Positions 52,471-54,241 of a stretch of DNA of 64,000 nt are shown piece by piece; the stretch's first letter is position 1; each line of letters opens with the position of its first letter. Under the pieces are notes generated by a model. The model did not search any database and was not told the origin of the DNA. It saw nothing but the letters and a program-made list of their open reading frames with translations. The DNA is taken from assembly GCA_947488195.1 (NCBI GenBank), contig CANKYR010000001.1, positions 1 to 64,000 of the forward strand, in the 5' to 3' direction. Source of the stretch: Flavobacteriales bacterium. GTDB lineage: Bacteria > Bacteroidota > Bacteroidia > Flavobacteriales_D > Sanyastnellaceae. The translations under genes were made by a program, and so were the position numbers.

Positions 52471-53265
52471 ATGAAGCAGTATCACGATTTGTTACAACAC
52501 CTTTTAGACAACGGCGCGAAGAAGGAAGACCGCACGGGTACGGGAACTTACAGTGTTTTCGGACATCAAATGCGATTTAATTTAGCGGAAGGATTTCCGC
52601 TAATAACAACGAAGAAGCTTCATACACGAAGCATTTTCGTAGAGCTTTTGTGGTTTCTAAAAGGCGACACGAACATTTCTTATTTAAAGGATAACGGAGT
52701 TTCCATTTGGGACGAATGGGCCGATGAAAATGGAAACTTAGGTCCTGTATACGGCTACCAGTGGCGCTCATGGCCGAATCCAGACGGAAGCTCAACCGAT
52801 CAGATTGTTAATTTGGTAAACGGATTGAAAAAAAATCCGAATAGTCGCAGACACATTGTTTCTGCTTGGAACCCTTCATTCATTGAAGATATGGCGCTTC
52901 CGCCCTGCCACTGTTTGTTTCAGTTTTATGTGGCGGAAGGAAAATTGAGTTGTCAATTGTACCAAAGAAGTTGCGATACGTTTTTAGGAGTTCCCTTCAA
53001 CATAGCATCATACGCTTTGTTGGTTCATATGATTGCGCAAGTATGCGATTTGGAAGTGGGTGATTTTGTTTGGACCGGTGGAGATGTGCATTTGTATTCC
53101 AACCACGTAGATCAAGCGAAACTGCAATTGACCCGCGAACACCGCACACTTCCAACTTTAAAATTGAATCCGAATGTGAAAGATCTTTTTGCATTCACCA
53201 TGGACGATATTTCAATTGAAAACTACGATCCGCATCCACACATTAAAGCAGCAGTTGCTATCTAA
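52471..53265 (+). CDS. thyA: Thymidylate synthase
   Basis: [68 protein letters not shown]; true start probably the internal ATG of the 52444 ORF. Confidence 0.97.
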
Positions 53266-53774
53266 TGGAAATTTCAGTAATCGCCGCCATGGGCTTGAAT
53301 CGTGAGATTGGTAAAGACAACGATTTAATGTGGCACCTCCCAAACGATATGAAGTTCTTCAAGGATACTACGAAGGGCCATCACATTATCATGGGAAGAA
53401 AAAACTACGAAAGCATTCCGCTCGCATTTCGTCCGTTTAAAAATCGCGTGAACATTGTTTTATCGCGCGATAAAAATTACGACGCTCCCGGATGTGTGGT
53501 CTTCGACGAACTAAGTCGGGCATTGGGTTTTTCGCGCGAAGGAGGAGAAACAGAAGTGTTTATTATTGGCGGCGAGCAAATCTATGCTTGGGCGCTTCGT
53601 GAGGGCTTTGTTCAGCATATTTATTTGACGCATATTGAAGGTGAATTCCCAGGCGCTCATGCGCATTTTCCTGAATTCGATGCGAGTTTATATTCGAGAG
53701 AATTGATTTTGGAACAGGGAGTTGATGAGAGGCATAAGTTTGGGTTTAAGACTTACAAATACACGTTGGTTTAG
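53265..53774 (+). CDS. folA: Dihydrofolate reductase
   Basis: ISVIAAMGLNREIGKDNDLMWHLPNDMKFFKDTTKGHHIIMGRKNYES, FIIGGEQIYAWAL. Confidence 0.97.
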   Translation: MEISVIAAMGLNREIGKDNDLMWHLPNDMKFFKDTTKGHHIIMGRKNYESIPLAFRPFKNRVNIVLSRDKNYDAPGCVVFDELSRALGFSREGGETEVFIIGGEQIYAWALREGFVQHIYLTHIEGEFPGAHAHFPEFDASLYSRELILEQGVDERHKFGFKTYKYTLV

Positions 53775-53902
53775 TTGCTTTGCAAGGTCTTTCAGAAGGT
53801 CGCTACGCGAAGCGTCCTTGCAAAGCACCTTTCGTAGAACCTTGTCAATACACCTTCCGCAGGACCTTTCGTAGAACCTTGTGAACACACCTCTCGCAGA
53901 AT
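53775..53902. repeat. Tandem array of 12-13 nt micro-hairpin modules (locus 2)
   Basis: Seven contiguous modules at 53816-53901: CCTTGCAAAGCA, CCTTTCGTAGAA, CCTTGTCAATACA, CCTTCCGCAGGA, CCTTTCGTAGAA, CCTTGTGAACACA, CCTCTCGCAGAA; preceded by TTGCTTTGCAAGG, TCTTTCAGAAGG, TCGCTACGCGAAGCGT; convergent gap folA/mmcQ. Confidence 0.85.
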
Positions 53903-54241
53903 CTATTTATTCTTCTTTGATTTAGGCTTTACCAGATCGAAGCTGTGTTGAACGAGTTCTTTCAATAATTTATCGGGAACGTCGCTGTTCGGGATGACAA
54001 GGTTCCAATGTTTTTTGCTGGTGTGGTAACCGGGTTGAATGCCGTTGTATTCTTCACGAAGTTCAATGGCTCTTTCGGGGTCGCATTTGAGGTTGATTCC
54101 TTTTTCGAAGTTGTCGAGATTAACCATGGCGAAGATTTTATTTTCAATTCGAAAAACCAAAGCACTTTCGTCGAAGGGTAAATCAGACGTTACCTCTTCA
54201 CTAATGGCTTGACATGTTTCGAAAAAATCTTCTATGTTCAT
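53903..54241 (-). CDS. MmcQ/YjbR family protein
   Basis: MNIEDFFETCQAISEEVTSDLPFDESALVFRIENKIFAMVNLD...INLKCDPERAIELREEYNGIQPGYHTSKKHWNLV; start set at the internal ATG (54241). Confidence 0.9.
   Translation of the reverse strand: MNIEDFFETCQAISEEVTSDLPFDESALVFRIENKIFAMVNLDNFEKGINLKCDPERAIELREEYNGIQPGYHTSKKHWNLVIPNSDVPDKLLKELVQHSFDLVKPKSKKNK

Follow-up and report, generated by a model that had tools for sequence, protein, structure and literature searches.

Rickettsia palindromic elements (RPE) lie between genes and also in frame within conserved protein genes, and have no established transposase (PMC2229807, PMC3733652). Units of the RPE-1 type measure ~105-146 bp and have long stems, and those of the CGTC-tagged RPE-4 and RPE-6 have stems of 8-9 bp. 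REP/BIME elements, which are mostly intergenic, combine a short palindrome (unit 20-40 bp) with a one-sided GTAG or CGTC tag and form inverted pairs or clusters (PMC3733652). The PARCELs of Mollicutes and others are tandem coding repeats with dyad symmetry, in which a 75-nt unit encodes an amphipathic repeat of 25 residues (DUF285) in genes of unknown function (PMC2996958). Lastly, coding palindromes of nematomorph mitochondria keep their stem pairing and are gained and lost dynamically, for which arm-to-arm conversion by template switching has been proposed (PMC6649704).

Here we describe a repeat whose module is 12-13 nt long and consists of a 3-bp stem with a 3-4-nt loop, followed by AGG or AGA (CCT or TCT on the other strand). 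Some modules stand alone, and others follow one another in tandem arrays that can reach tens of units. As with RPE, the palindromes are found in gaps and in frame in conserved genes, where insertions are tolerated; unlike RPE, the unit and its stem are far smaller, the units run in tandem, and their orientation flips at a core. The resemblance to REP/BIME lies in a short palindrome with a one-sided tag, arranged in inverted pairs and clusters about a core. However, the tag is AGG/AGA next to the stem, the stems are of 3 bp (4 bp in the core), coding insertions are frequent, the tandem periodicity is 12 nt and there is no consistent RAYT. In contrast to PARCELs, the unit is 12 nt (4 aa) and sits in housekeeping enzymes as well as gaps, and DUF285 gave no match in ten proteins scanned, eight of them with module arrays. 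Stem pairing in coding sequence and gain/loss dynamics are shared with the nematomorph palindromes, but the latter, perfect inverted repeats with long arms (up to 142 bp each), are not built from a tandem, tagged 12-nt unit. In its workings the family thus resembles REP/BIME and RPE, but it lacks those of their defining traits that we tested (unit size, tag and association with a transposase), and the literature that we covered in part held no description of such a 12-nt micro-hairpin family. We consider it, with a probability of roughly 0.6, to be a family of non-autonomous palindromic repeats specific to the genus, an analogue of REP/BIME and RPE with a new 12-nt unit. Among the roles guessed at in a preliminary description of this DNA, a small palindrome-generating mobile repeat family comes closest. 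It looks like previously undescribed, fast-evolving parasitic palindromic DNA, and the simplest view is that it is selfish or neutral.

In the 64-kb stretch of DNA analysed here (the window), an array occupies the folA/mmcQ gap (53775-53902), its edges lying one base off both stop codons (Table 1). Seven contiguous minus-strand units (53816-53901; 12, 12, 13, 12, 12, 13 and 12 nt) stand opposite two plus-strand units (53776-53799), on the other side of a 24-nt core that reads AAGGTCGCTACGCGAAGCGTCCTT on the plus strand (53796-53819). This agrees with the preliminary description, which had the array internally inverted: all modules that it named are present with the lengths it gave, and the single exception to complementarity is a T-G wobble. 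What it listed as the module TCGC-TAC-GCGA-AG is part of the core. The run of seven is the sole run of at least three modules in the window, and no such run arose in 10 shuffles of the window or 5,000 shuffles of the surrounding 500-bp region, perfect or wobble stems being allowed. The same description had set the array apart from CRISPR, classic REP and a normal terminator. We concur, since modules adjoin without spacers and vary in sequence, there is no T-tract, the interval 53600-54100 contains no terminator-like site, and an Rfam search returned no match up to E=1.

Table 1. Positions of the repeat modules, the core and the genes discussed, in window coordinates. The start of mmcQ/yjbR (ATG 54241) was set from homologues.
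Feature	Position	Strand	Basis
folA (dihydrofolate reductase), left neighbour	53265..53774	+	ORF; Pfam DHFR_1 E=2.9e-43; stop codon adjoins array
Module TGC-TTT-GCA-AGG	53776..53787	+	sequence
Module TCT-TTC-AGA-AGG	53788..53799	+	sequence
Core AAGGACGCTTCGCGTAGCGACCTT: two overlapping 4-bp-stem hairpins; module orientation switches here	53796..53819	-	
Module TGC-TTT-GCA-AGG	53816..53827	-	sequence
Two 37-nt superunits (12+12+13), 84% identical: block duplication	53816..53889	-	
Module TTC-TAC-GAA-AGG	53828..53839	-	sequence
13-nt module TGT-ATTG-ACA-AGG	53840..53852	-	sequence
Module TCC-TGC-GGA-AGG	53853..53864	-	sequence
Module TTC-TAC-GAA-AGG	53865..53876	-	sequence
13-nt module TGT-GTTC-ACA-AGG	53877..53889	-	sequence
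Module TTC-TGC-GAG-AGG, one T-G wobble pair (outermost)	53890..53901	-	sequence
mmcQ/yjbR, right neighbour	53903..54241	-	Pfam YjbR E=2.2e-27; stop codon adjoins array
Cyclase-family hydrolase, array-free in window genome	57831..58580	+	Pfam Cyclase for G008 orthologue

The family is confined to one genus of Flavobacteriales, found mostly in lakes, where its unit is present in hundreds of copies across the genus. With the 261-bp array region as query, we recovered 8 places in its own genome and matches in 7/8 other sampled genomes of the genus. Genome-wide counts rest on pattern searches and sampled stretches, and the genus genomes are all draft MAGs, some of them incomplete. A two-module pattern (AAGRTBYTNCRVAAGRTBYTNCRVAAGRT) occurs 12-75 times per genome in 8/9 genus genomes; it is absent from the ninth, G007, and from all 390 other genomes of the order. 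Runs of at least two modules numbered 104 in 282 kb of array-bearing loci from the genus, counted with orthologues and thus not as independent events, against 1 in shuffles. The preliminary description had proposed looking for further arrays in this genome and its relatives and comparing orthologous gaps. Further arrays are indeed many, far above shuffled controls, and copy number differs between orthologous gaps; the description had missed the conserved core element of ~50 bp at many loci and the arrays within conserved enzymes. A match in G030 (L016), outside the genus, was at chance level with no array there, and an excess in G023 under a looser pattern was gone under the two-module pattern. 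Arrays coincide with contig ends and runs of N, so that copy numbers are lower bounds. Runs of 100 N lie inside arrays at L034:8922-9021, L040:10097-10196 and L203:3119-3218, and contigs end inside arrays in G001 (C25) and G008 (C70). Short-read assembly breaks at arrays, and MAG copy numbers are probably underestimates.

The exact core is present in 8/9 genus genomes at 1-7 copies each and in 0/106 other genomes of the family, with a backward control of zero. A scan of 85,488 species with the core returned 21 stretches, all from lake MAG records or MAGs titled Flavobacteriales. Several lake MAG records of the genus named 'Chryseobacterium gleum' (L074, L077, L078 and related ones; CAMDFE, CAMCUG, CAMCVP) share this genus-specific core with records named 'Flavobacteriales bacterium', and the species label on them is probably wrong. 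Aligned across different species and sites, 22 core sequences match over ~50 bp (AAGGTGCTTTGCAAGGACGCTTCGCGTAGCGACCTTC and a less conserved part up to the next CCTT), beyond which the conserved part is just the 12-nt period of AAGG/CCTT. Judged from its sequence, the core forms two overlapping hairpins with 4-bp stems and GNA loops on opposite strands. At many loci the modules left of the core carry AGG on one strand and those to its right carry AGG on the other; the orientation of intergenic arrays often flips at this conserved two-hairpin element. A second core variant (AAGAACGCTTCGCGTAAATTTCTT) is restricted to the folA/mmcQ gap of four genomes. Viral contigs did not contain the core, and the module-like matches in them are unrelated coding repeats without stems; we therefore rejected viral carriage.

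Such inverted pairs about a core are what a BIME would look like, and a REP/BIME-type element could be moved by a RAYT-like HUH transposase recognising the hairpin and its AGR/CCT tag. The logic is the same, down to the one-sided tag, the clusters and the occasional in-gene copies (PMC3733652), and Y1_Tnp proteins, the mark of such a transposase that we looked for, occur in 4/9 genus genomes. However, Y1_Tnp is missing from the array-rich, 96% complete G003 and also from G000, G002 and G008, some of the genomes being incomplete, which amounts to no consistent association with arrays. Moreover, neither GTAG nor CGTC is present as a terminal tag, and the stems are of 3-4 bp compared with 8-9 bp in CGTC families (PMC3733652). 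We consider a RAYT-moved element unlikely. The genus genomes contain no RVT_1 reverse transcriptase either.

Close species differ through gain, loss, lengthening and replacement of arrays. Acetyl-CoA synthetase (Acs) has no insert in G000, G004, G007 and outgroups and differing arrays in G005, G006 and G008. A GT2 glycosyltransferase holds one module in G001, 21 (84 aa) in G006 and none in G007. Orthologues of the cyclase-family hydrolase that is array-free in the window genome contain 6-13 modules in G001, G003, G006 and G008 and one module in G005. This multi-species series, from an empty site through one module to as many as 21 in the same gene, captures a palindromic repeat invading conserved enzymes, which acquire low-complexity inserts of 10-84 aa between close species. 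The stop codons of folA and mmcQ are 0 bp apart in G007, and in this gap the other eight genomes carry one of two array types, A (G000, G002, G004, G001) or B (G006, G008, G003, G005). Arrays are 87-99% identical within a type where aligned and mostly 51-56% between types (one pair reaching 73% over 48 aligned bases). These types cross-cut the relatedness of the genes. The folA of G000 and G006 is 94.7% identical and the mmcQ of G002 and G008 95.6% identical, and in both pairs the array types differ; G000 and G004 share a type with folA at 89.8% identity. It follows that whole arrays were either exchanged at this site or transferred within tracts barely longer than the array. A MITE would have terminal inverted repeats and a target-site duplication. 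Inverted modules flank the core here, and no target-site duplication was seen, the empty site of G007 being only ~62% identical and too diverged to resolve one. G007 itself is 95% complete, belongs to the genus by assignment and has no arrays, its folA being only ~62% identical; it is either an outgroup that is useful for its empty sites or a genome misplaced in the genus.

Array sites include co-directional, divergent and convergent gaps as well as gene interiors, and they often adjoin stop codons. This distribution does not support the special tie to convergent genes that had been supposed from the folA/mmcQ gap. The termination role suggested there is likewise not supported, there being no terminator-like site. 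A broader function at the RNA level, in which transcript structure of the inverted array ends or protects mRNAs and the micro-hairpins serve as spacers, would fit the frequent position next to stop codons. Folded as RNA, the 136-nt gap was better than shuffles on both strands (z -1.8 and -2.4). Moreover, arrays within one haplotype are sometimes more conserved than the flanking genes, which could mean function. However, folding as DNA gave similar z-scores (z -1.8 to -2.4 overall, a modest gain over shuffles), there is no T-tract, and arrays also sit within genes and in every gap orientation. Orthologous gaps are, moreover, empty or filled with unalignable arrays. An RNA-level role is accordingly improbable in our view. 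The predicted folds of the gap array are dominated by longer-range pairing, about the core and between distant parts of the array, and not by the 3-bp micro-hairpins; for this reason we can only infer that micro-hairpins form in vivo.

Besides Acs, the GT2 glycosyltransferase and the cyclase-family hydrolase, modules occur in an aspartokinase-type AA_kinase, a Ppx/GppA phosphatase (Ppx-GppA), a periplasmic binding protein (Peripla_BP_2) and others. Placed on the solved enzyme 2p20, the Acs insert of G006 falls between residues 565 and 574. Within genes the units are translated into 4-aa repeats, for example DSAKDASQDVSQ. Across a checked set of ORFs, the same-strand modules (56/56) all lie in a single frame, GRT-BYT-NCR-VAA, which reads [GD][SAPV][SAT][KQE], and in a second set 160/181 do so. 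Most exceptions of the second set sit in a single ORF call judged spurious: L199:3919-4374 (G006:C1) is an array of ~460 bp and ~35 modules that looks intergenic, and the 275-aa ORF that mechanical ORF calling yields there is probably spurious. Opposite-strand modules in genes use mainly two frames. Modules of 13 nt number 0/90 in verified genes compared with 25/200 between genes (p=7e-5). Given the one shared frame and the absence of 13-nt units, it is most likely that the in-gene inserts are translated and that selection acting on the protein filters them. The preliminary description's remark that this is not a repeat protein consequently stands for the folA/mmcQ gap, where 13-nt units break the frame, and fails elsewhere, where modules solely of 12 nt run in frame within conserved enzymes.

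We collected nine-mers solely by their flanks, AAGR at one end and AGR at the other, to measure covariation. A full 3-bp stem was present in 290/635 anchored nine-mers from loci of the genus, compared with 3/178 in shuffled sequence, 0/77 in other genera and 5/254 in viral coding repeats. Mutual information between the inner stem pairs, columns 2-8 and 3-7, was 0.63 and 0.50 (shuffle maxima 0.22 and 0.23), and non-partner columns were at background level. Within arrays, 316/352 of the 12-nt units with a main stem are perfect. Five stems (TTC, TGT, TGC, TCC and TCT) make up ~94% of modules, and with so small a vocabulary, plain copying from a module pool could account for much of the covariation. 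Six further stems have both arms altered: AGC/GCT, CGC/GCG, TAC/GTA, TCG/CGA, TTG/CAA and TTT/AAA. The covarying columns and these new stems uphold the earlier proposal that structure rather than sequence is kept. GNA loops are found on the CCT strand of 198/290 modules (68%), mostly with a C-G closing pair, and GCGAAGC is part of common modules as read on that strand, e.g. TGC-GAA-GCA. DNA mini-hairpins with a GNA triloop, such as d(GCGAAGC), are exceptionally stable. The d(GCGAAGC) mini-hairpin is used as a stable hairpin in the hairpin literature (PMC10527192); unlike the modules, it represents a motif of biophysics and no family of genomic repeats.

These measurements also bear on whether the family is an ordinary coding minisatellite of tetrapeptide repeats that leaked into gaps, with complementarity a by-product of codon choice. 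In-gene units do read [GD]-[SAPV]-[SAT]-[KQE], and viral contigs contain comparable tetrapeptide repeats of D/S/K. However, those viral repeats lack stem complementarity, as the 5/254 anchored instances show, whereas in the genus the choices of first and last codon covary so that pairing is kept, and intergenic arrays, which include 13-nt units, retain their stems. We regard a leaked minisatellite as quite improbable. Weakest of all is an array of protein-binding sites (nucleoid or partition type) in which every module would be one pseudo-palindromic site. Conserved AGR spacers and a regular spacing close to one helical turn might recommend it, but it is very improbable, given large presence/absence differences among close species and stem bases that vary freely while pairing is kept, the opposite of what a binder reading bases in duplex DNA would produce.

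For a non-autonomous palindromic family we can sketch how it may be maintained. Short pieces, one to a few modules long, would seed new sites, and replication slippage or recombination would lengthen and shorten arrays in blocks of 24-60 nt. Stems might stay complementary by copying through, or correction by, hairpins in single-stranded DNA at replication forks (a template switch from one arm to the other), plus copying from the existing pool of modules. In genes, selection would discard frame-breaking units and retain hydrophilic, stop-free tetrapeptides, and at a given site whole arrays may be replaced. A bolder version, which we think rather unlikely, sees in the 12-nt micro-hairpin a DNA parasite of a new kind, spreading by single-stranded-DNA hairpin copying without a dedicated transposase. 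Its arms would co-evolve by template switching, its 12-nt period and stop-free frame would preadapt it to coding sequence, and the two-hairpin core would be a dispersal or origin unit moving whole arrays between species. With this family one can test whether selection or mutation (template switching) keeps stems paired, a question that applies to REP- and RPE-like repeats.

Autocorrelation of the arrays gave block sizes of 36, 37 and 60 nt. One large protein, for which the copy at L193 had no Pfam match, carries very different arrays in the same N-terminal region in two species (L201:2786-3025 and L193:3168-3335), with a 60-nt superunit repeated several times (QGRSEGASQELPQDPFQDAP).
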